IMG/VR virus record: IMGVR_UViG_3300042353_000570
Coordinates: 1 to 40,411 of that record
Origin: a virus
Length of the DNA stretch: 40,411 bases
Strand: one strand, 5' to 3'
The notes under the pieces are model-generated. The model saw nothing but the letters and a program-made list of their open reading frames with translations, ran no database searches and was not told where the DNA came from. This document shows, piece after piece, positions 7,948 through 40,342 of the stretch (positions are counted from its first letter, which is position 1; the number at the start of each line of letters is the position of its first letter). A program made the translations under genes and the position numbers.

Positions 7948-8949
7948 TTAAATCCTCCACCACGCCTTCTCATCCGCTCTCACGGCGGGAACGGCATAGA
8001 CACGTTGCACCATCGTTGGTGACGTGTGCCCCATTTGAAAAGCCGTGAGTCCGGCATTACCGCAACGCCCGAGGTGATAAGTCGCAAACGAGTGTCGCAT
8101 CGCATTGTCAGGCCACCCCTCCCAACCGATGGCCAGAGCCACCTTGCGCCTTCTCTCGTACAGAGCTTCTAGCGACCCACTCACGATCTGCCCTGTCTTC
8201 TTCTCGAAAAACTTTTTGCGCTTCATCAGCGGCTCGGTCATATCGACCAATCGCTCCAGCATGCCTTCATGCTGCTTGGATACCTCCGTTCTGACGTGAA
8301 TTTGCTTTGTCTTAACGTCGATATCCTCCCAATTCATCCTCGCCACCTCAATCGTCCTCAGACCCGCAAATCCACCCAAAAGAACCAGTGCCTTTACATC
8401 GTCAGGCATCGTGGCATCCAGAAGGGATATCATTTTTTCTGGAGTCAAAATGTTCCTTCCAGGAGTCGCCCTCGGAGGTCGAACTCCATCGAGCGGCGAG
8501 CGGTCAATGAACCGCATGCGATAGCACCAGCGGAAAAACATCCGCGCATAACGAAACCACATCGCCTTGCTCGTCTCCGATCCACCCAGCGATCTTACCC
8601 AGCGATCCATTGCCAGAGGTTCGACTCTAGCTATCGGCCCACTGAGGTAAGACGAAAGATTTTTCACGGTAGCCGCAATTTTATCCGCATGGCTTTTCGA
8701 TTTTCCCTCCGCCTCTACGCTCCACATTCGCAACGCCTGCGCCACACTCATGCCATCATCACCGTAAATCGCCTGAGTGCCCTTTTCGCGCACCAATATC
8801 ACCAATTTTTGCCCTTCCTCAAACGCTTGGGCTTCCGTTGCAAAAAACCTTCGGATTTTTTTTCCGTAGAACGAGGCCCGCAATTCTAATTTCCAAGGAG
8901 ATTTTGGTCTCGCTGGGTAATAGGCCACTATAAAAGGCGAATTGTTCAT
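7948..8949 (-). CDS. int: Tyrosine-family site-specific integrase
   Basis: 333 residues with the normal layout: a short N-terminal arm-binding-type region (about 1-60), a SAM-like core-binding domain (about 65-170) and a catalytic domain. GFAGLRTIEV supplies the first Arg, AMRHSFATYH the box II Arg, GHTSPTMVQRVYA the His and the Tyr nucleophile. In box II the usual HxxR reads NAMR, so the first His is replaced by Asn. It acts on the attP site just upstream (9094-9154), inserting the phage into a host tRNA-Ser gene. No strong ribosome binding site precedes the ATG. Confidence 0.92.
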   Translation of the reverse strand: MNNSPFIVAYYPARPKSPWKLELRASFYGKKIRRFFATEAQAFEEGQKLVILVREKGTQAIYGDDGMSVAQALRMWSVEAEGKSKSHADKIAATVKNLSSYLSGPIARVEPLAMDRWVRSLGGSETSKAMWFRYARMFFRWCYRMRFIDRSPLDGVRPPRATPGRNILTPEKMISLLDATMPDDVKALVLLGGFAGLRTIEVARMNWEDIDVKTKQIHVRTEVSKQHEGMLERLVDMTEPLMKRKKFFEKKTGQIVSGSLEALYERRRKVALAIGWEGWPDNAMRHSFATYHLGRCGNAGLTAFQMGHTSPTMVQRVYAVPAVRADEKAWWRI

Positions 8950-17092: not shown

Positions 17093-17383
17093 TTATGTTG
17101 GTAGGTTTTTGGATTGACGGGCTTCTAGGCAGAGTTCGCTGCCTGGCTGAAAGGCGCGGCAGGCTTGTGGGCGTAAAAGGTATATTGCGCAGGCGACTCC
17201 TCGCCCCACCTCGCCACGGAGGGCGATGCAGCGTCCGCAGGGGTCGGTCTTGAGCAGGGGGTAATCGGTGCGGAGGTAGTCGGCAGGGATGCCAGCGGCA
17301 TCGGAGCGGTCGCGCCGGAGCACGGGCCAGCTCCACTTATGGCTGCAACATGCTCCACACCGTTGACAGTTGTATTCTTCCAT
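17093..17383 (-). CDS. YkgJ-type cysteine-cluster protein
   Basis: 96 residues with the family pattern: Cys6-x2-Cys9-x2-Cys12-Cys13, then DPCGRC (49-52), CAIYLLRPQACRAF (Cys65, Cys75) and Cys85. YkgJ-family proteins bind a metal or iron-sulfur cluster; their function is not well defined. The gene overlaps the last 86 codons of the PAPS-reductase-like gene in another frame, an unusually long overlap. The two form a pair embedded in the virion-protein operon, so the protein may serve as an electron or metal partner of that enzyme. Confidence 0.78.
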   Translation of the reverse strand: MEEYNCQRCGACCSHKWSWPVLRRDRSDAAGIPADYLRTDYPLLKTDPCGRCIALRGEVGRGVACAIYLLRPQACRAFQPGSELCLEARQSKNLPT

Positions 17384-18198
17384 GTGGGTTGAAATCCTTG
17401 AGCTTGACTTGAAAAATCAATGTAAGGCGCAAGGTGAGAAATGTTGTTTGTTTGAGCGTTTAGTTTTGGGCAATGAACGGTGTCAGAAAGGTGGCGGTTC
17501 ACGCAGTTGAGGCAAACTGGATAGTAATCGGCATTTTGCGATTTGTCGTTTTTGTGCTGCCAGCTTGCGTTTGATTTGATGTATCGGGAGTCATCATTAG
17601 GGACTCCCTCGGATTCGAGATAGTTCCAGACATCTGCATCCGTCCAATCGCGCATTGGGAAGAATTGCCACGGGGCTCCGTCTGGGCGGACGACATCTTG
17701 CGCGAGGGGGACTTGGCCTTTAATTAGGTCGATGTCCGACGATTTCTGGCCGTGAAAAACAGAATCCCACGGGAAATTAAAACGTCCAGTGGGGCGCTGC
17801 AAGGCGTCAAGCCCGCAAGTGTAAGGCTCTCCATCTTTTGGGTGCTCTGTGCCTAGAAAAAGCAAAAGAATTTTATGTGGCGCCATTTCGTAGCCTTTGA
17901 CTAAATCAAAACGAGGTTTGCCTGATTCAATATCGTAGCCATCTTGGAGCGCATAAGCGTAGGGCGCCCAGTCATACATTTCGAGATCCCACTCCCGAGC
18001 GAGTAGGTCGGAGTGAGCATACCTTTGGCGGAAACGGGGCTCGCGCCATTGGATCACCGGCAACTTCACGCCTACCTTGAAAAGCAGGAGATGGAGCATA
18101 GCCGTGCTATCCTTACCGCCACTCCACAGCACGGCAGGGTTATTTACCTGATCCAGCCAGGCACTCATTTTAGATACGGTATTTTGAATTAGATTCAT
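17125..18198 (-). CDS. PAPS-reductase / DndC-like PP-loop protein
   Basis: 357 residues from ATG 18198 (TAATG with the upstream gene). The PP-loop SGGKDSTAMLHLL lies near residues 27-39, followed by PMRDWTDADVWNYLESEGVP, characteristic of PAPS reductases, and a CLNCVNRH...C zinc-finger-like stretch near 245-262. Members activate sulfate/sulfur chemistry or adenylate substrates; DndC-type relatives act in DNA phosphorothioation. The last 86 residues overlap the YkgJ-like gene, are Ala/Pro/Ser-rich and unlike the rest, so the natural C-terminus may be near residue 271. Probably an accessory (moron) gene carried in the structural region. Confidence 0.78.
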   Translation of the reverse strand: MNLIQNTVSKMSAWLDQVNNPAVLWSGGKDSTAMLHLLLFKVGVKLPVIQWREPRFRQRYAHSDLLAREWDLEMYDWAPYAYALQDGYDIESGKPRFDLVKGYEMAPHKILLLFLGTEHPKDGEPYTCGLDALQRPTGRFNFPWDSVFHGQKSSDIDLIKGQVPLAQDVVRPDGAPWQFFPMRDWTDADVWNYLESEGVPNDDSRYIKSNASWQHKNDKSQNADYYPVCLNCVNRHLSDTVHCPKLNAQTNNISHLAPYIDFSSQAQGFQPTWKNTTVNGVEHVAAISGAGPCSGATAPMPLASLPTTSAPITPCSRPTPADAASPSVARWGEESPAQYTFYAHKPAAPFSQAANSA

Positions 18199-20357
18199 TA
18201 TATAGCGCCACCAATTATCATCGCCCCGCCAACACTTCCCCCCGCTGCCAAAGCCCCACCACCGATGCTGCCCCACATGCCCGCCTGCCCTGCGCTGTAA
18301 GCGGCCTCGGATTGCATCTTGGCTCCGGCGATTCCGCCGACCATGTCTATGCTGGCACCGGCGACTTGGCTTCCGAGGCCGTTGACGTTATACATATTGC
18401 CGAGGCCGAGGTTGCGGATGAGCGGGTTCATCGCCGAGTATTGGCCCATCATGCCGAGCTGGGCATTCATGCCTGCGGCATTTTTGGCCTCCATGTAGTT
18501 GGAGGCGGCCCCGAGCTGGTTGATGTTTTGTTGAGCGGAGGCGAGACGGTTGGACTCGTTGATCGTCGAGGCTTGGAGCCCCGTTTGCTGGTTCGCGAGA
18601 GCGGCCTGCTGTGCGAGCTGGGCATTCGTCGTGCCGAGGGATAGAGCTGTCTGCTGGTTCGCAAGAGAAGCTTGTTGAGCATAGCCAGCATTGGCGAGGT
18701 TCGCCGCCTGTGTGTTGGTGGCGTTGTATTGCCCTGTGTTAAATGCTGTCTGTTGGTTCGCCTGCGCTGCGCGGAGAGCGGCGTCTTGGTTGGCCGCATT
18801 AGCTGTCTGGCGGAGACCGGCATTATATTGCTCGGTCTGCATCCCTGCCGCTTGGTTGAGTCCGCTCGCACGCAGAGCTGCGTCTTGGTTCGCTAGGTTC
18901 GCTTGTTGGAGGTAGCCTGCATTGGCTTGGTTGACCCCGAGCGTCGCCGCTTGGTTTGCCCGAGCCGCATCCATTCCGGCAGCTTGGTTTGCCAGGGAAA
19001 GTTGCGCAGATTTAGCCTGGTTAGCGCGAGCCGCATCGAGCGACAGAGCGGAGTTCTGCTGCTGGCGCGACACGTCGGAGTTTTGCACGGCGGACGCAAA
19101 GGCCCCGTCTTGCTGGAATCTTTGCTGGCTGTAGCGGTCGCGGTTGAGGAGTTCGCCCGCAAGGGCTGAGTTGCCGGTCGCCATGCCCCGCGCCGCATAT
19201 CCTGCGCGGGCAGATTGCACCGCATCGCGGGACGCCTCGGAGGAAAGCCGCCCGTTGGTAGCAAGCCTGTCTTGCGCGGTCTGGTAGAGGCTTTGGCCGA
19301 GCTGCCCTTGCCCGATCTGTTGGGCCGAGATATTGCGGACGCGAGCCGCATTGATTGCCCCGATCTGCGGGGTATCTGTGATCTGCGCCCCGCTGACATC
19401 GCGACTTGCGACTCGCTCGTATGCTCCCGCTTGTTGCGCCTGCATTTGTTGAGCGGTGATGGCGTCCACATTTCCCATCTGGGAAGCTGTGGCGCTCGCT
19501 CCCGTCACGTCGGCCACGTTGCCCACTTGGGATCCCGCGATGCGCTCGGCGGCGATGTCTTTGCTGGCGTAGCCTTTGGCATTTGCGTCTACAAAAGCCT
19601 GCCCTTCCGCAGTGACTTGGCCGAGCTTGTTGGCGTATTGTCCGGCGCTATCGAGAGCGGCGTAGGCTTGCGGGTCGGCTTGTTGAAAAGAGTCCACCAA
19701 GCTCACCCCTTCGGTCTTCATCGCCTCGTTTGCGGTGGAGATAGATTGCCCTAGTTGGGTGAAATTGTTATTTGCCAACGTGTATGCAGTGGTCGTTTTT
19801 TTGACAGCGCCTTCCAGCTTCTTGACCGCTTTACTCGTCGGAGCGGCCGCGAAGGATTGGGCCGACGTGAGCGCAGACGAGGCTTTTGCTGTTGCCGCTT
19901 GTAGGCTTTTTAAAGTTTTAGCCGAGGTCTTCGGGTTCGCTTGAGCCGCCGCTAGCTTGGCTTGCGATGCTTCGGCGGCTTTGGCAGCCGCCGCTACCTT
20001 TTTGTCCGCATCGGCTTTGGCTTTTGCTTGAGCTGCGGTGAGCTGCCCTTCCGTTTTACTTTTTGCTGCGGTAGCCTTATCGAGTTTTTTTTGAGATTTA
20101 GGTTGAGCTTTTTTGAGGCCGGTCACTTGCTTGTCCAGCTCGGCTTGGCGAGCGGGGTCCAGAGTCATAGTGCGCCCGCCCGAGTTTAGGTAGTTTACAA
20201 ATGCGTTTGTGCCTTGTTGCGCTCCGCCTATGTTGGCTTGGCCCACCGCAGGCGCGAGCGTATTGATCGTCGTCTTGGATTTGTTAGCGAGTGACTGTGC
20301 GCTCGGAGCTTGAGGCGCTGCTTGAGGCGCTCCACCTCCTCCAAAAAGCCCGCCCAT
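18198..20357 (-). CDS. Large Ala/Gln-rich ejection-type protein with tandem repeats
   Basis: 719 residues. The N-terminus is MGGLFGGGG; residues about 80-200 are Lys/Ala-rich coiled coil. About residues 430-620 carry many copies of an ANQDAALRA/ANQQTAL-like unit, and the end is glycine-rich and hydrophobic (GGGALAAGGSVGGAMIIGG). This layout is typical of podoviral internal-core or pilot proteins that are ejected into the cell. It lies after the tail genes and before other such proteins. The repeats are also visible in DNA (about 18560-19040). Confidence 0.68.
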   Translation of the reverse strand: MGGLFGGGGAPQAAPQAPSAQSLANKSKTTINTLAPAVGQANIGGAQQGTNAFVNYLNSGGRTMTLDPARQAELDKQVTGLKKAQPKSQKKLDKATAAKSKTEGQLTAAQAKAKADADKKVAAAAKAAEASQAKLAAAQANPKTSAKTLKSLQAATAKASSALTSAQSFAAAPTSKAVKKLEGAVKKTTTAYTLANNNFTQLGQSISTANEAMKTEGVSLVDSFQQADPQAYAALDSAGQYANKLGQVTAEGQAFVDANAKGYASKDIAAERIAGSQVGNVADVTGASATASQMGNVDAITAQQMQAQQAGAYERVASRDVSGAQITDTPQIGAINAARVRNISAQQIGQGQLGQSLYQTAQDRLATNGRLSSEASRDAVQSARAGYAARGMATGNSALAGELLNRDRYSQQRFQQDGAFASAVQNSDVSRQQQNSALSLDAARANQAKSAQLSLANQAAGMDAARANQAATLGVNQANAGYLQQANLANQDAALRASGLNQAAGMQTEQYNAGLRQTANAANQDAALRAAQANQQTAFNTGQYNATNTQAANLANAGYAQQASLANQQTALSLGTTNAQLAQQAALANQQTGLQASTINESNRLASAQQNINQLGAASNYMEAKNAAGMNAQLGMMGQYSAMNPLIRNLGLGNMYNVNGLGSQVAGASIDMVGGIAGAKMQSEAAYSAGQAGMWGSIGGGALAAGGSVGGAMIIGGAI

Positions 20358-24629: not shown

Positions 24630-24687
24630 CAGAAGTTTTAAGTTTTAAGAATTAAGCCTCCGTGTCCTCTGTGTCCTCTGTGGTCAA
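24630..24687. other. Short gap with tandem GTGTCCTCT repeat
   Basis: Contains GTGTCCTCT twice followed by GTGG, and the AT-rich AAGTTTTAAG motif also seen at about 25020-25050. No gene; possibly a mosaic junction. Confidence 0.35.
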
Positions 24688-24852
24688 TCATTTGGAAGAT
24701 GTCGGTAGCGGTAGCTCATAGCACAGGGTTCCGTAGTCTCCACGGATACACACTTGCGGCGCACGCATACCCGCGCACCCGCTTAGAAGCAGGGTCAGGA
24801 AGCCAGCGAAGACCGACAAGACAATGAGGAGAGCGTTAGATTTTGGGCTCAC
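24688..24852 (-). CDS. Small lipoprotein, o-spanin-like candidate
   Basis: 54 residues from GTG 24852, overlapping the upstream gene by 17 bases. An N-terminal hydrophobic segment is followed by a lipobox LLSGC at about 22-26 (Cys26), then a short exported part with two Cys (Cys35, Cys44) and a Pro-rich end. Lipidated small proteins in a lysis cluster are usually outer-membrane spanin subunits (Rz1-like). No matching i-spanin was recognised, so it could instead be a superinfection-exclusion lipoprotein. It supports a Gram-negative host. Confidence 0.6.
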   Translation of the reverse strand: MSPKSNALLIVLSVFAGFLTLLLSGCAGMRAPQVCIRGDYGTLCYELPLPTSSK

Positions 24853-33930: not shown

Positions 33931-34953
33931 TTAAGCAGTCGGAGCGAACTTACCGAGTGCGAGTGGGCTCTTCACGCAGAGGGCGCAGATGGCGTCCACG
34001 ATGCCGCGTGATCCACCGCCACGGTCTTCTAGCTCTTGGTAGCGGGGCTTGCGGTTGTAGCGCAGCTCGACCATGTCCATGTCGAGCACATAGCCGCGTC
34101 CGTTTTTCACGGCAGAGGCAGAGGCGCCGGTAGCGTCCTGAGCGAGGAACAACGATGGGATGAGCTCGAGTGTGCCGAAGTCGCCCTCGAAGATGTCGAC
34201 CGTGGAGACGATTTTATTCTCGTCTTTTTGGTTCAGCACGCGGATGGCGCTGGCGACATTCGTTGATGCGAATTGGGTGCGGGTGAATGCGGTGAACTGG
34301 CGCTTGAGCACAGGGCCGCAAATGAGGCTGTATGTGTTCGATTTGCCGGTCTGCTCGTAGAGGGACTGCAACATGTCCTGGATGTTGTTCTCGGTGAGCG
34401 AAGCTGTAGCTGTCGTGTTGATCGCGCCGACTGGGGTGCGGTACGCCGCGTTGACAGGGAGGTCGGACTGAGCGCCGTTCTGGATCCACTTGCCAAGACC
34501 ACGGGTCTTGTAGGGAGTCGCACCGGACTGCTCGACGCCTTCTTGGTCGGAGCAGAATGCGGCTTCCATGGAGCGCTTGAGTTGCTCGAGGCTCTTGGAT
34601 ACGGCGCGTGCCATTTCCTTTTTCTTGCCGATGCCGGCGACCTCAGAGACGTTCTGAGCGAGATCGTCCACGGATGGGACTTCGCGGAACTTCTGGATGC
34701 GGGCTGAAAGCAGAACGCGGTTGGCTGCGTTGTCGATGAAGTCGGATGAGGAAACATCCGTATTCGATAGGACGCCGGCAGGAACGGTCACGGCGTTGAA
34801 GCCGTCGGCTTGCCATTGAGTAAGGGGATTGATGGGGTCGGAGCCTTTCTTGGCCATCGAAACGACGGGGCAAGTTTTTGCGTCAACCACAGCGATGAGA
34901 TCGCTGAGATCCTGGCGGATGCCAGTCTGGGAGGTAATAAGTGTAGCTGCCAT
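33931..34953 (-). CDS. Major capsid protein (SU10/DUF5309-like)
   Basis: 340 residues. N-terminus MAATLITSQTGIRQDLSDLI, a central FIDNAANRVLLSARIQKFREVPSVDD, and a C-terminus GRGYVLDMDMVELRYNRKPRYQ match the SU10-type major capsid family, an HK97-fold group in podoviruses. It follows the scaffold gene and is itself followed by a strong hairpin, as expected for the most abundant virion protein. Confidence 0.85.
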   Translation of the reverse strand: MAATLITSQTGIRQDLSDLIAVVDAKTCPVVSMAKKGSDPINPLTQWQADGFNAVTVPAGVLSNTDVSSSDFIDNAANRVLLSARIQKFREVPSVDDLAQNVSEVAGIGKKKEMARAVSKSLEQLKRSMEAAFCSDQEGVEQSGATPYKTRGLGKWIQNGAQSDLPVNAAYRTPVGAINTTATASLTENNIQDMLQSLYEQTGKSNTYSLICGPVLKRQFTAFTRTQFASTNVASAIRVLNQKDENKIVSTVDIFEGDFGTLELIPSLFLAQDATGASASAVKNGRGYVLDMDMVELRYNRKPRYQELEDRGGGSRGIVDAICALCVKSPLALGKFAPTA

Positions 34954-34993: not shown

Positions 34994-35995
34994 TTAGAGT
35001 GCGCCTTCGAGATAGGCGGCGATGTCGTCGGTCTTGAGCGAGGATCCACGCTTGAAAAGCGCTTGCGCTCCGTCGCGGTTCGCAATGTCTTGGGCGGGCA
35101 CTCGGGCACCTTTTGCAGGACTAGGAGGGGAACTGGCTCTCACATGGGAATTCGACTCGACCTTGGCCGTGGCCTTCTTTGTTGCTTGGCCGGCACGGGC
35201 GAAGCGCATCTTCATGCCCTCCATGGCGTCGCCGATGATCATCTCGAGGTGCGGAAGATTCCGCAAATAGGGATGCTCCTTGAGCGTGGCCGTGAGCATG
35301 CTGTGCTCCTGCGTGCCTACCTTGAAGAGTGCGGGATAGAATTGCTTCGTCTCCGGCATGACCATGTCGCGCTGCGCGATCCATTCCTTGCGCTTCGGCG
35401 CGTGCTCGGTGAGGAGCTCGTCGGCGGTGGCTAGGTACTCGCGCACCTGAGATGGCTCGTAGTAGACCTCTTCGCCGCTGGCATTCTGGACCGTGCCGCC
35501 CTCGAGATTCTTGATCGCCCAGGCGCGGATTTTTTTCGCGGTGGAGATCCTGTCTTCGAGTTGGTCCGAAGTCTCCACGTCGGCGAGCGGATTGCTCGGG
35601 GAGGGAGTGATCTGGACCGGCGTGGAGGCTTCGAGCTTGGCTCGGAGCTCACTGACCTCGGTCTCTAAAGTGTCGGCACGTTCTTCTGCCTCGCGCCGCT
35701 TGGACGTGATCTTATCGATCCGCTTGAGCAGCTTGTCGGAAGTAGGGGTCTTCTCTTCTTCTGGCTCGGCGTCGTCGGGTTCGGCGTCGTCGGGCTTGTC
35801 GTTGTCGTCTTCTTGTGAAAGATCAGATTCCGCTGAGGCATCCTCCGTGTCGGTGGCCTCTGGCTGCGCTTCTGGCGCGTCCTCGGTCTCCTCGGCGGCG
35901 GGTTGTTCCTGCGGGGTTATCTCTTCGAGAGCGAAGCCGATTTCGGCTGCGATATCAGAGAGCTGCATTGGGGTGTCGTTTGTGTCTGTCATCAT
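34994..35995 (-). CDS. Scaffolding protein candidate
   Basis: 333 residues. The first 95 are very acidic and low-complexity (EETEDAPEAQPEATDTED), followed by a coiled coil (KRIDKITSKRREAEERADTLETE), a helical centre and a basic C-terminus (KKATAKVES; SPPSPAKG). This acidic/coiled-coil/basic layout and place just upstream of the capsid gene are typical of scaffolds that guide capsid assembly and then leave. Two Met codons start the frame. Confidence 0.75.
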   Translation of the reverse strand: MMTDTNDTPMQLSDIAAEIGFALEEITPQEQPAAEETEDAPEAQPEATDTEDASAESDLSQEDDNDKPDDAEPDDAEPEEEKTPTSDKLLKRIDKITSKRREAEERADTLETEVSELRAKLEASTPVQITPSPSNPLADVETSDQLEDRISTAKKIRAWAIKNLEGGTVQNASGEEVYYEPSQVREYLATADELLTEHAPKRKEWIAQRDMVMPETKQFYPALFKVGTQEHSMLTATLKEHPYLRNLPHLEMIIGDAMEGMKMRFARAGQATKKATAKVESNSHVRASSPPSPAKGARVPAQDIANRDGAQALFKRGSSLKTDDIAAYLEGAL

Positions 35996-36140: not shown

Positions 36141-36203
36141 AAAAAACAGGGGCGTCCTCAATGACCGCCGGAAAGTTATATTGAAAATTGAAGTTGAGGA
36201 CGC
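36141..36203 (-). terminator. Intrinsic terminator at the end of the modification-type cassette
   Basis: GCGTCCTCAA (36203-36194) and TTGAGGACGC (36161-36152) form a perfect 10-bp stem, followed by CCCTG and a T7 run on the minus strand. The loop is long (32 bases) and contains the stop codon of the TGT/DpdA-like gene. It separates the accessory cassette from the scaffold operon. Confidence 0.62.
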
Positions 36204-36814
36204 ATGTCTCCGCCGGTTGATTGCTCTAAATATCGGTGAAGTTCTTCCAATCGCTCCTCTCCTCCTCGCGTCCAACCTGTGCCATCGCAGGATTCGACTC
36301 CCGCTTCATGGCACATCCAAAGGAGTCGCTCGGAATTAACACGCCCCACATGGACTCGAGGAAAGTTGTTTGCCCAAGTGTGTAGGTGCTTCCACTTCCA
36401 CTCGGTTGTGCCTCCTACAAAAATTACTTCGGCTTCGTCCGGCACATCGTTTGGGTTCATTCCATCCTGCACGGCAAACGCAAAGCATACCCCGCGCAGG
36501 CGATCTCGTAGTTGCGGCATCCATTCATGCCAGCGGATGATCGTTGACTCTCTGTCTGCTACTACATCTGGAACTACCACCCAGCGCGGCTTGTGTGCAT
36601 TTTTTGATTTCTCAATCAAATTGAGAAAAGCATCAGCATCCCACTTCCGATCATTTGCCCATGCCCCATATGCCCCATTGTCTAGAGCGTATGGCATCCA
36701 AGATGGAGGTTGCCGCCAACCATCTGGAGATAGCAGCCAGCCGATTCGGTTTTGAAACCTACCGGCAAGGTATCCTATCTGGATTCCAGAGTTATTGGAC
36801 GGCATCACAATCAT
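36176..36814 (-). CDS. tRNA-guanine-transglycosylase / DpdA-like protein
   Basis: 212 residues from ATG 36814; GGGGTG upstream supports it over the TTG at 36829. The motif order follows the TGT TIM barrel: ALDNGAYGAW (Asp45) as for DSGGFQ, VVPDVVAD, FAVQDGM (Gln116) as for VQG, FVGGTTEWK as for GGLAVGE, RVHVGRVNS, and VESCDGTGWTRGG (Asp177) as for the nucleophile motif FDCVxPTR. Family enzymes exchange guanine for a 7-deazaguanine in tRNA (TGT) or DNA (DpdA). The Cys/His zinc site of bacterial TGT is not seen. No queC/D/E/folE-like genes are present, so a precursor would come from the host. It ends the accessory cassette. Confidence 0.55.
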   Translation of the reverse strand: MIVMPSNNSGIQIGYLAGRFQNRIGWLLSPDGWRQPPSWMPYALDNGAYGAWANDRKWDADAFLNLIEKSKNAHKPRWVVVPDVVADRESTIIRWHEWMPQLRDRLRGVCFAFAVQDGMNPNDVPDEAEVIFVGGTTEWKWKHLHTWANNFPRVHVGRVNSERLLWMCHEAGVESCDGTGWTRGGEERLEELHRYLEQSTGGDMRPQLQFSI

Positions 36815-36857
36815 TTTTACACCCCGCAATCAGTAGGTGGTGGTGAAATTAGCGGAT

Positions 36858-37142
36858 TCACACTTTCCTGCTCGCCTCGTCGATGCGAATCATCAGGTCG
36901 CTCTCCAGCGCCCGCAGGGCGTCTAGGGCCCCAGCGCAGTGGGCGAGCTGCCCGTGCTCGGTCGCTGTTTTGATGCTGCCGACAAGCTCCACAGCGTCGT
37001 CGATGTGATCGCGCACGACCTGCAAGACGGCTTGCACGACAAGCGGCTTGGTGCCTGGCATGCACAGCGCGGTCACCATGTCGTCGTCATCGAGGCGGTC
37101 GGGAGTCATGTATCGGGTGGTTTGTTTTTTTAGGTTGAACAT
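36858..37142 (-). CDS. Hypothetical protein in the accessory cassette
   Basis: 94 residues. The start ATG overlaps the end of the Mom-like gene by 13 bases (Met12 at 37109 is an alternative). The N-terminus is polar with a DRLDDDDM stretch; the rest is helical, probably a small bundle (VVQAVLQVVRDHIDDAVELVGSIKTATEHG). Not recognised. It lies between two candidate modification genes and may help one of them. Confidence 0.6.
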   Translation of the reverse strand: MFNLKKQTTRYMTPDRLDDDDMVTALCMPGTKPLVVQAVLQVVRDHIDDAVELVGSIKTATEHGQLAHCAGALDALRALESDLMIRIDEASRKV

Positions 37143-37603
37143 AGGGTTATGGATTTGGTGTTTGATTTTTTTTCAAAAATTAAAAGACGACCTTTTGTGG
37201 TCCCGCATAAACGCCAGCCTGCGATTTTAAAACAGCATCCAGGGTTGCTTGACCGGATGCGTCGCGCATCGACATAGGTATAGTGCCGTTCACCAGGCCA
37301 GCAGAAATCAGCAATGGCGTCAGCCTGTCCGAGAAGGAGGCTGGATTTATGTTCCGACTCGTTTCTAAAAACGGAGCAGTTGATTCCTTGCTGACCGGAT
37401 AAATCGATAAATTTTTTCCAGACGAACAATGCGTCTCCATTCCATGTTCGCAGGACGATTTTTTGACCTGGTCCGCAGAACAATTTTGGTTTTCTACCGT
37501 CTTTGTAAAATTGACGGCTATAATGTCGGTCAAAAAGTTTTCGGCAAACATCGTCTCCGTCTTTTGTAATCCACCAAAGAGGTTGTTCATCTGATGCAAT
37601 CAA
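37130..37603 (-). CDS. Mom-like GNAT-fold protein
   Basis: 157 residues from a TTG start sharing TTGA with the stop of the HTH gene. It shows RHYSRQ (27-31), CSVFRNE (77-82) then SS at 87-88, TYVDA (109-113), SSNPG (118-122) and CFKIAGWRLCG (124-134). This motif order matches a phage family with a GNAT-like fold and is reminiscent of the Mu Mom family, which modifies adenine in DNA to block restriction (the SYAD...GHxG...YxAxxw region of Mom has an analogous layout). A different acyltransferase function is possible. The neighbouring TGT/DpdA-like gene supports a nucleic-acid-modification role. Confidence 0.5.
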   Translation of the reverse strand: MIASDEQPLWWITKDGDDVCRKLFDRHYSRQFYKDGRKPKLFCGPGQKIVLRTWNGDALFVWKKFIDLSGQQGINCSVFRNESEHKSSLLLGQADAIADFCWPGERHYTYVDARRIRSSNPGCCFKIAGWRLCGTTKGRLLIFEKKSNTKSITLCST

Positions 37604-37791
37604 GCGAGTTGGAATTTTTTGATGATGGCGGGGAGGCTGAACGTGTGCCGTGTGCCTGCTGGCGCTGCAATGGGCCGCAGGAGACCGACCGAGACGTAGG
37701 TCTTGTATGTGGCGTCGCTGATCTCCAGCAACTCCATCACGTCCCGCTTCCGCAGCGTGCGTGCGCTAGTAAGTCCCGCCGCCAGTAACAT
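37600..37791 (-). CDS. Small HTH protein after TerL
   Basis: 63 residues from ATG 37791, chosen for an excellent AAGGAGGG ribosome binding site just upstream. A longer in-frame extension (126 codons) is a shadow of the TerL end. TLRKRDVMELLEISDATYKTYVSVGLLRPI is a MerR-type helix-turn-helix, and a short wing follows. It overlaps the end of TerL by 26 bases and couples to the Mom-like gene through TTGA. It may regulate the cassette or late genes. Confidence 0.65.
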   Translation of the reverse strand: MLLAAGLTSARTLRKRDVMELLEISDATYKTYVSVGLLRPIAAPAGTRHTFSLPAIIKKFQLA

Positions 37792-39376
37792 GGAGACGCC
37801 CTCCTTCCACGTTGCCGACCCCAGAGGTAAGGAGGTATCGGAGGCAGTCGATGGGGTCCTTGCTGGCACCTTTCTGGCCGTCGCTTCCGGTCCACTCCTT
37901 GAGGGCCCAGATCGTGTTGGTACAGCACTCGCTGATGTACAGCTTCGGTGCGTTGGTGTGGTCGATTTTTGTTTCTTCATTGTAATAGATTGCGTCGTTA
38001 ATGAGGCCGACTCCCTCTTCGATGTTCTCGCCAGGACAAGCTCGGAAACTCATGCCGGCGTCCTCCAACTCCTCCAAGAGGGTGGTGCTTTGCTCGCGGG
38101 TTCCGGCTACGGTCGTATTCGCATATCTCGAGTCTATCCACCGCTCAAAGACCTCGACCCCGTCAAGCTTCTCGACCCGCTCGATCTCGCTCTTGTACGC
38201 GAGCAACCCGAAGCCGAAACTCTTCTGCCCGTCTCCGGCCTCGCCGTCGGCTTTCTTCCCGCTCGACACCGCCCACGGCCCAGCGTGCCCGACGCCCTCG
38301 ATGTAGGTGTCGGTCTGCGGCCACTCGCGGTAGACCCACGCCCGCTCGCCGGCATCGATGCGGATCCACAACATGAACCAGTTTTTCCCGCCCGCCGGAT
38401 CGCAGAAAAGGTAGTTCGTCCCGTCCTTCGGCACTTGGTCGGCCTTGACGACATGCACCGCCTCACGGAAGCGCGGAAAACGCGTCGCGGTCGCCTTGAT
38501 CGGCACGCCGTAAGCTCGGCAAAGGATTTTTTCCCGCGGTTGCTTGGCGAGCTCGGTCTTCATCCGGCCGTACCCAGCCCAAGGGTTGTTTTTTGTCTGA
38601 AAATAGATGACCCCCGCATTCCGCGTCGTACACTCCTGCACCACCGGCACCATCTCAAAGCCCTTCCCGTTTTTCTTCGGCAAAAGCTCGGCATCGCACT
38701 CCTCGAGGGTCTTGGCGCCTTGCAGGTAGTTTTTTACCGTGGGGCTGTAGCCTTCGATGGGCGTAAAGGTGACGAGAAGGATGCCATTTCGGTCGAGAAG
38801 ACGGAATCGGATTGTCTCGAGCCAGTCCAACGGCACCAACTCGTCGCACCAGGCTAAATCGATCTCGCCTCCCTCGATGGTGGTGATGTCCTGCGCGTAA
38901 TTTCGGAACCACACCTGCGACTTATTCGGAAGCACCGCCGTATTCTCAGAAAATCCGTTCTTTTGCGTGTACGAAATGTTCGTGACCTTGTTCCGCTTCG
39001 CCACCCGCAGCTCCCGAGGCATGAAATTCCACACAATCGGCTGCTGCATGCTGATGCTGTTGTCATTCGTGGTCTGAAAGCACCAAACCCTGCTCGCCGG
39101 CTTCTCCAACAACGTGCGGACGACCATCTTTCCCGCCCAAGTGCTCTTCCCCGAGCGATTCCCGCCCAACACCAAGAGGTCGCGGTAGCGCTTGGCGATC
39201 TTCTCCGCCTTCGTCCAGTGCTCCGGCTCGTACCCGTACCGCACCGGATCCTCCTTCTCGCTAGAAATCCTCTTCTCCCGCTCCACCAACAACCTCTTAG
39301 CCCCCTCGGGGTCAGCCAAAAAATGCTCCGGCGGGATAAACGGCAAAAGCGGGTGGGGTGATTGCGTAAAGGTCAC
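37766..39376 (-). CDS. terL: Terminase large subunit
   Basis: 536 residues from a GTG that overlaps the HNH stop (GTGA). Walker A GGNRSGKST at 71-79 (Lys77), Walker B IDLAWCDE with Asp178/Glu179, and coupling motif TFT at 203-205 define the packaging ATPase. NYLFCDPAGGKNWFML near 330-345 begins the RNase-H-like nuclease domain. It pumps DNA into the prohead and cuts it at start and end. It is placed after an HNH endonuclease, an arrangement frequent in cos-type phages. Confidence 0.95.
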   Translation of the reverse strand: MTFTQSPHPLLPFIPPEHFLADPEGAKRLLVEREKRISSEKEDPVRYGYEPEHWTKAEKIAKRYRDLLVLGGNRSGKSTWAGKMVVRTLLEKPASRVWCFQTTNDNSISMQQPIVWNFMPRELRVAKRNKVTNISYTQKNGFSENTAVLPNKSQVWFRNYAQDITTIEGGEIDLAWCDELVPLDWLETIRFRLLDRNGILLVTFTPIEGYSPTVKNYLQGAKTLEECDAELLPKKNGKGFEMVPVVQECTTRNAGVIYFQTKNNPWAGYGRMKTELAKQPREKILCRAYGVPIKATATRFPRFREAVHVVKADQVPKDGTNYLFCDPAGGKNWFMLWIRIDAGERAWVYREWPQTDTYIEGVGHAGPWAVSSGKKADGEAGDGQKSFGFGLLAYKSEIERVEKLDGVEVFERWIDSRYANTTVAGTREQSTTLLEELEDAGMSFRACPGENIEEGVGLINDAIYYNEETKIDHTNAPKLYISECCTNTIWALKEWTGSDGQKGASKDPIDCLRYLLTSGVGNVEGGRLHVTGGGTY

Positions 39377-39900
39377 TGCGCCTCCTTTATTAGTTCTCTA
39401 AAATCGTTAGCCCACTGATCCCATGCCTTTCCTTTTTTTCCTTCAGAGAGTTTAAATGCAGCGCCCGATGCATCGCACACAACAGGACCGCCATAAAGTG
39501 TTTTGCAGTAATAAATATCTGGATAATCATCACTGGAGCTTTTCTCAATTCTTTCAAGAAGCAGCAACGGATAGTCCAAACTCTGGTATTCTTCTTGATA
39601 AACTACCCAAGGGACCACAATCCCAATAGAATCCTCCCAAAAATGCCTTTTTGTGTGGCAGTGATTGCAATATGTTACCAAATCCTCGTTCGGATATTCC
39701 CACGGCCTTTTTCCTTTTGCGTAGTATGTGTGGTGAACGTGCAGCTCTGAATTTTCGTCGCCACATAAGCAACACTTCCATCCGTCACGCTCAAAAATTT
39801 GAAGACGCTTGCGTTGCCACCTTGGATTTCTTAATTGATCGCTATACTTACTCATTTTTTTGTAGCCGAGCTTTTCGAGTTGATCATGGGTCCAGTTCAC
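39373..39900 (-). CDS. HNH endonuclease
   Basis: 175 residues from GTG 39900 (GTGA overlap). WQRKRLQIFERDGWKCCLCG, ELHVHHTYY and LVTYCNHCHTKRH give the HNH core: two Cys pairs for zinc and the HH...N/H catalytic motif. The C-terminal half is less conserved. HNH proteins beside TerL assist cos cleavage and morphogenesis in other phages, so a packaging role is likely. Confidence 0.85.
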   Translation of the reverse strand: MNWTHDQLEKLGYKKMSKYSDQLRNPRWQRKRLQIFERDGWKCCLCGDENSELHVHHTYYAKGKRPWEYPNEDLVTYCNHCHTKRHFWEDSIGIVVPWVVYQEEYQSLDYPLLLLERIEKSSSDDYPDIYYCKTLYGGPVVCDASGAAFKLSEGKKGKAWDQWANDFRELIKEAQ

Positions 39901-40076
39901 TGAGCCTCCTTTTTCAGCACATCGAGGATGCCCTTGAGCAACCTCACCTCCTCCCTCGCTTCGTCGCGCTCGCGTTCCAGTTTGCGCGCAAAGTTGGATG
40001 TAACGACCTGCATTGGAATCGGGTTTGTTCTAATAAGTCCCTCATGCTGCGCCTCATCAGTCTCTGGTGTACTCAT
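39897..40076 (-). CDS. Small coiled-coil protein
   Basis: 59 residues between the 89-residue gene and HNH, coupled on both sides (ATGA and GTGA). The first 25 residues are polar (MSTPETDEAQHEGLIRTNP), the rest one charged helix with KLERERDEAREEVRLL, a clear heptad-like coiled coil. No family recognised. The regular coupling and clean frame support a real gene. Confidence 0.6.
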   Translation of the reverse strand: MSTPETDEAQHEGLIRTNPIPMQVVTSNFARKLERERDEAREEVRLLKGILDVLKKEAQ

Positions 40077-40342
40077 CCCTCATACCCCCCGTGCAACAGC
40101 ACACTCGTCTTCGGCTTCACATCGACCAACGCCCCAGCAGGGTCCTTGCCCACCACCACCGGCTCGTTCGCCCTATAAAACGAATTGTTCCTCACCGACA
40201 CATTCACCACCACCCCCTCGATATCCACCCTCAATATCCTCGGATTCTGGGGCTGTCTCCCAGGCGCCGTCTTTCCCCTCTTAGGCCACTCCATCTGTTT
40301 CGTTTCGGGTTTACTCTCTTGCTTTTGGTTCGTGTTTTTCAT
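40073..40342 (-). CDS. Hypothetical protein at the head of the packaging genes
   Basis: 89 residues. The first 30 are polar and Lys/Gln-rich (KNTNQKQESKPETKQ), the rest beta-rich (ILRVDIEGVVVNVSVRNNSF). Its start also exists at 58 in the left terminal copy, so the gene is intact across the circle. It is preceded by a gap with a TATAAT box. No family recognised. Confidence 0.6.
   Translation of the reverse strand: MKNTNQKQESKPETKQMEWPKRGKTAPGRQPQNPRILRVDIEGVVVNVSVRNNSFYRANEPVVVGKDPAGALVDVKPKTSVLLHGGYEG

Follow-up and report, generated by a model that had tools for sequence, protein, structure and literature searches.

Two exchangeable cargo slots beside the terminase gene of a temperate phage hold candidate nucleic-acid-modification enzymes

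Introduction

Between the packaging and structural genes of a viral genome, a gene for a GNAT-fold protein and a gene for a protein of tRNA-guanine transglycosylase (TGT) type lie within one compact block. An earlier note, made from the sequence of this DNA, had regarded the pair as a possible undescribed system of hypermodification or anti-restriction. The locus thus raises the question of whether the two genes form one pathway or are separate enzymes that share a site. Comparing the block with sibling genomes, we arrive at a probability of roughly 0.6 for the second answer, namely that the locus is a cargo site stacking independent modification enzymes, here a DNA-acting TGT fed by the host and a separate GNAT acyltransferase. 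Phages of the DpdA-only kind and exchangeable phage cargo are already known; what is new here is the site itself, a small TGT family linked to que genes, and the visible serial replacement of cargo.

Results and discussion

The block lies in a temperate phage with a probable verrucomicrobial host

The window, which denotes the whole stretch of DNA that was analysed, is an entire IMG/VR record of 40,411 bp. Because the genes at its two ends (193-1182 and 40073-40342) adjoin each other in L260, a sibling whose terminase large subunit (TerL) is 97.6% identical to that of the window, this record probably represents a near-complete, circularly permuted genome. It encodes an integrase and a DnaB-like helicase, and the phage carrying the block is temperate. 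The order TerL, HTH-like gene, ORF94, scaffold and capsid recurs in a contig of a Chthoniobacter MAG, and further TerL relatives were found in Verrucomicrobia and Pedosphaera MAGs as well as in one alphaproteobacterial MAG. From these MAG contigs, which may be misbinned, the host is likely a verrucomicrobium, provided that the binning is correct.

All four ORFs that had been claimed between TerL and the scaffold gene are present on the minus strand, where the order is TerL, HTH (63 aa), GNAT (157 aa), ORF94 (94 aa), TGT (212 aa), scaffold and capsid (Table 1). Their close linkage is likewise as described, with overlaps of 4 bp between the GNAT gene and the HTH stop and of 13 bp between ORF94 and the GNAT gene, and with the TGT following 43 bp after ORF94. 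The terminator said to close the block held up in part: a 10-bp stem with a 32-nt loop and a T-run is present at about 36142-36204, but the hairpin is weak, as the terminator scan reported nothing at this position and its folding energy is ordinary (z = -0.98). The promoter scan was uninformative. Neither the HTH-like protein nor ORF94 matched a family in Pfam and PHROG searches. In all 45 sibling loci, which came from a TerL search and share the order TerL, HTH, ORF94 (L036 and L262 represent one and the same contig), the 63-aa HTH-like gene follows TerL and ORF94 is conserved, each with 42% identity in L405. Intact homologues in tens to hundreds of viral contigs, together with low dN/dS for the TGT and the GNAT gene, indicate that the ORFs of the block are real genes.

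Table 1. Coordinates of the features discussed, in window numbering.
Feature	Position	Strand	Evidence and remarks
Integrase	7948-8949		
SU10-type major capsid protein	33931-34953	-	PF17236, 2.2e-45
Head scaffolding protein, right fixed gene of the site	34994-35995	-	phrog_8865, 1.6e-5; position conserved
22 bp after the TGT frame	36156-36177	-	same sequence as the 22 bp that follow the PAPS-like stop codon in L223
TGT-fold, DpdA-like transglycosylase, 212 aa, cargo of slot 2	36176-36814	-	phrog_15826, 1.5e-35; ATG start
15-codon scar VNPLISPPPTD-CGV-stop, just before the TGT start	36817-36861	-	comparison with L223
ORF94, fixed gene between the two slots	36858-37142	-	kept in siblings
GNAT-fold acyltransferase candidate, cargo of slot 1	37130-37603	-	phrog_24928, 3e-28; TTG start
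HTH-like protein, 63 aa, fixed gene, overlaps the TerL end	37600-37791	-	HTH recognised by eye
TerL, left fixed gene of the site	37766-39376	-	phrog_2, 7.8e-20; PF03237, 6.9e-6; order kept in siblings

Siblings exchange single genes in two slots

Throughout the 45 sibling loci, the TerL-HTH-ORF94-scaffold frame is constant and the cargo is variable. Slot 1, from HTH to ORF94, usually measures 6-37 bp, and slot 2, from ORF94 to scaffold, most often 168-320 bp. Both are empty in L216-L218, whose TerL is about 99% identical to that of the window. L037, the sole sibling with the GNAT gene (97% identical), lacks the TGT, and L223 carries a PAPS-reductase-like ATPase as cargo (phrog_424, 6.6e-47). 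L036 is without the GNAT gene, and the ORF at its TGT position opens with the first 52 bp of the TGT and then continues as a Dam-like methyltransferase (phrog_111, 1.2e-12). Genes of the same kind also turn up elsewhere: L260 holds the TGT between homologues of the window ORFs 1243-2511 and 193-1182, and L038, with a TerL of just 49% identity, has the GNAT gene (91% identity) at another position. On this comparison, the relatives appear to swap the cargo of both slots freely.

The borders of the exchanged pieces can be read from the alignments. Relative to the empty sibling L217, slot 2 differs essentially over 36147-36851. The scar in front of the TGT consists of the first 11 and the last 3 codons plus the stop of the PAPS-reductase-like gene that is intact in L223, and the 22 bp behind the TGT frame match those that lie behind the stop codon of that L223 gene (Table 1). 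The simplest history would have the TGT inserted directly behind the PAPS-like gene and the latter then lost by an in-frame deletion; in L036, a methyltransferase gene has in turn overwritten the TGT. As to slot 1, the GNAT gene fills the interval from the HTH stop to the start of ORF94, and L036 shows this site empty. The GNAT gene and the TGT (GC3 of 0.405 and 0.469, against 0.73-0.79 for their neighbours) are of foreign composition and were separately acquired. Both are under purifying selection, the TGT with a dN/dS of 0.06-0.10 and the GNAT gene with one of 0.11-0.19.

These sibling genomes and fossil gene ends indicate that phages exchange single nucleic-acid-modification genes in slots beside the terminase, and such exchange would enable them to stack chemically different candidate protections gene by gene. 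P2-like phages and P4 satellites are reported to have hotspots of exchangeable defence cargo between fixed flanks (PMC9122126), and the site in the window resembles them in both respects. Unlike those hotspots, it lies inside the packaging-capsid string, its gene-end scars point to serial replacement, and its cargo consists of single enzyme genes of the nucleic-acid-modification type.

The slot-2 protein belongs to a transglycosylase family linked to queD and queC

The TGT/DpdA-like identity proposed for the slot-2 protein is supported by fold, motifs and the linkage of its family to queD and queC. The AlphaFold2 model (pLDDT 91.8, from an alignment of 33 relatives) matches the TGT fold: the 50 top-ranking PDB matches are without exception chains of the TGT family, Cap10 included, at E about 2e-5 and a TM of 0.6 on the query. 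Enzymes of the DpdA/TGT type are marked by two catalytic aspartates and by a base-pocket glutamine and Gly-Gly pair. Across 33 TGT-family sequences, D45, Q116, G134-G135 and D177 are invariant, and the order of these motifs is that of TDSGGFQ, IIQG, VGGLAVGE and FDC in E. coli TGT, the residue equivalence being drawn from motif order. Searches for NCBIfam, PADLOC and Pfam matches at E <= 1 returned none, PDB sequence searches with the TGT and GNAT profiles gave chance matches only, and phrog_887 (queuine tRNA-ribosyltransferase) matched weakly (1e-3). Since the profile alignment of the family to E. coli TGT was not significant, the assignment is based on the fold, on the order of the motifs and on the linkage of genes.

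This linkage is extensive. At 50 of 68 distinct TGT-family loci, queD and/or queC lies within 1.5 kb on the same strand, often with queD 30 bp downstream or with queC overlapping the TGT start, and a Pfam check confirmed the neighbours as PTPS/QueD (1.5e-30) and QueC (4e-50). We consider this association of genes the strongest functional evidence for what the family would do. It ties a poorly annotated, widespread family of 212-aa transglycosylases to 7-deazaguanine synthesis genes, and the resulting prediction can be tested for hundreds of viruses from the environment. The copy in the window is an orphan, neither queD nor queC being found in the whole 40,411-bp record, in line with the absence of precursor-synthesis genes that had been remarked on before. 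Among TGTs at least 80% identical to it, a que gene is present in 8 of 17 loci and the remainder are orphans. Of 76 genomes from the class of the putative host, 34, or under half, gave a QueC match (E < 1e-24), so that a host-made precursor for the TGT is plausible, yet not assured. Most likely, the TGT is a DNA base-exchange enzyme with a host-fed precursor.

DpdA-only phages are a recognised third group (Hutinet et al. 2019), for which a supply of preQ0 by the host has been proposed (PMC6884629). The window resembles them in having a TGT-fold enzyme without precursor-synthesis genes. It differs from them in that its 212-aa enzyme falls outside the scanned NCBIfam and PADLOC models and sits in a cargo slot near the terminase, and in that queD follows immediately after close homologues elsewhere. 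The mycobacteriophage and Arthrobacter phage proteins named 'DpdA-like tRNA-guanine transglycosylase' by SEA-PHAGES (phrog_15826) belong to the same family, at 30-34% identity; these function names were given by similarity, and phage lineage and gene neighbourhood in the window are different.

Other activities have to be weighed for this protein. Transfer RNA-type TGTs carry a C-terminal zinc motif, CxCxxC...H. An enzyme that acts on tRNA in a queuosine-type reaction, aiding host or phage translation and unrelated to DNA protection, would fit the TGT fold and the frequency of the queuosine route in the host class. We nonetheless rate this as rather unlikely, as the family members, of just 212 aa, are without that C-terminal motif (the window protein has no CxCxxC, its only cysteines being at 110, 168 and 176), and as a gene resembling a DNA methyltransferase occupies the place of the TGT in sibling L036. 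A further point for a tRNA substrate is the suggestion that que genes of phages increase Q in tRNA (PMC6884629). The second possibility, that TGT and GNAT gene are transient passengers with no current function in the phage, would account for their foreign composition and polymorphic presence, for the scar of an earlier gene and for the missing queD and queC, but the frames are intact and constrained (dN/dS 0.06-0.19), and orphan TGTs 93-94% identical to that of the window recur in other contigs; we hold it to be highly improbable.

The slot-1 protein has a GNAT fold, but Mom family membership is not supported

Mom transfers a carbamoylmethyl group to adenine N6. Of the label 'Mom-like GNAT' that the slot-1 protein had received, the fold is borne out by structure prediction and membership in the Mom family is not. 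The AlphaFold2 model (pLDDT 88) matches the GNAT fold, with NatE (4y49; E 4.8e-4, TM 0.58), ElaA and others among its PDB matches, just one of which is under E 0.001. These are mostly protein or small-molecule acetyltransferases, and a BFVD fold search returned generic GNATs, none of them Mom-specific. Mom membership was rejected by Pfam (no match to PF25680 at E <= 1), by hhalign with 25 and with 147 sequences (probability below 1% against the Mu Mom alignment, with the HYS tripeptide alone in common) and by hmmsearch, which was not significant in either direction. The residues invariant in the Mom alignment are H58, Y59, D149 and Y159 (Mu numbering of L280). In the GNAT family of the window, H27-Y28 is invariant, whereas the positions corresponding to D149 and Y159, which were assigned by eye, are variable (D/N/R/S and F/Y). 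The GNAT superfamily signature is an R/Q-x-x-G-x-G/A acyl-CoA loop, which is absent here; in 147 aligned family sequences the region reads FRNE....S. The protein thus shares with Mom of phage Mu the GNAT fold, the N-terminal HYS motif, a non-canonical acyl-CoA loop and its place as a late-region accessory gene, but differs in the points above and in that no Com-like partner was seen in the window. It may be a GNAT-fold enzyme with Mom-like action.

Because significant similarity to Mom is missing, the substrate of the GNAT protein could also be a protein. Cap10 of type IV CBASS joins or handles a nucleobase on a protein, and its gene neighbours are a CD-NTase and the QueC-like Cap9. By analogy, the GNAT protein might acetylate host or phage proteins and the TGT-fold protein might act in a Cap10-like manner, an idea in keeping with the Cap10-CdnD structure among the fold matches (9ntn, 17-18% identity) and with the kind of acetyltransferases that the GNAT model resembles. 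The window holds no CBASS partner genes, QueC among them, the TGT family sits with queD and queC, and GNAT relatives adjoin DNA methyltransferases in some phages, all of which argue against protein targets and leave them improbable in our estimate. The GNAT relatives occur in 480 stretches of IMG/VR with varied neighbours; a search for a constant neighbour gene of the family found none. DNA methyltransferases are among the commonest neighbours, and in Paenibacillus phage Lily the GNAT relative adjoins two DNA methyltransferase genes.

The two genes behave as independent cargo

Were the pair one system, as had been suggested, the TGT would insert an amine-bearing 7-deazaguanine such as preQ1 and the GNAT protein would acylate the amine, giving a hypermodified guanine. 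Whole-record searches of the window-like GNAT branch found the TGT in none of 41 records, and the GNAT gene turned up in 1 of 41 TGT records. Siblings L037 and L260 hold one gene without the other, the homologues travel separately, the two genes differ in slot and composition, and neither QueF nor another amine-making gene was recognised in the window. This pattern of presence and absence argues against a joint pathway as the rule, and we judge such a pathway to be distinctly unlikely here. The same pair does recur in other genomes, albeit in a minority of records of either family. Within the L065-like GNAT branch, 6 of 50 records have the TGT, a count that includes one weak partial match and two near-duplicates. 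In L112 (3519-6627), a GNAT gene, a gene for a 270-aa nuclease-like protein (exonuclease), QueD, QueC and TGT fall within 3.1 kb; its sister contigs have the same QueD-QueC-TGT set without the GNAT gene. QueD, TGT and GNAT lie close together in L336/L337, and L338 (2001-4432) and L339 have an apparent operon of GNAT, a 265-aa protein, TGT and QueC, in which the 265-aa protein has no Pfam match and contains a CxxxCxxC (radical-SAM-like) motif.

Owing to these GNAT relatives near TGT and que genes in unrelated phages, a joint pathway retains some standing. Action of the GNAT and DpdA-type enzymes in series could produce an undescribed acylated base, and the window might then be a late-acquired version of the association in L112, L336/L337 and L338/L339; this, too, we think has little chance of being correct. 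The L338/L339 operon would be the best place for joint acyl/7-deazaguanine chemistry, and contigs in which TGT and QueC adjoin the GNAT gene offer clean candidates for a hypermodified base that would be new. In the literature, a search for links between DpdA and acetyltransferases brought up nothing pertinent. For the window itself, the free swapping of slots among relatives makes the pair look less like one new pathway than like independent protections that have been stacked.

The stacking of independent enzymes would work as follows. Single genes are gained and lost in slot 1, between the TerL-HTH pair and ORF94, and in slot 2, between ORF94 and scaffold, with borders nearly gene-exact; in this phage, a GNAT-fold acyltransferase candidate fills the former and a minimal DpdA-type transglycosylase the latter. 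Both genes are presumably expressed with the late genes and before packaging, as their position in the structural-gene string suggests. The transglycosylase would replace guanines of the replicated phage DNA with a 7-deazaguanine of the preQ0/preQ1 type, which we take to be host-made since the phage has neither queD nor queC. Separately, the GNAT protein would acylate a different group; as with Mom, an amino group of a base is the most likely target. The outcome would be two protective layers on the packaged DNA against restriction.

Further features of the genome

Three other observations concern the same phage. In the tail region, the minus-strand gene at 17125-18276 encodes a PP-loop ATPase of CysD/PAPS-reductase/DndC-like type (phrog_424, 1.1e-10; PF01507, 5.3e-7), which is a third candidate for nucleic-acid or sulfur chemistry; among six window proteins scanned with PADLOC, it alone gave matches, these being weak ones to DndC/QueC. 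A sequence of 31-36 bp, CCTCCGTGTCCTCTGTGTCCTCTGTGGTCAATC, at 24658-24693 recurs near-unchanged three times in L038 and once in L013, and is a dispersed repeat common to different phages. Finally, an HNH endonuclease gene (39373-39980) overlaps the TerL start, and short stretches within it are about 85-92% identical to DNA of L006 and L021, two otherwise unrelated TGT-bearing phages.
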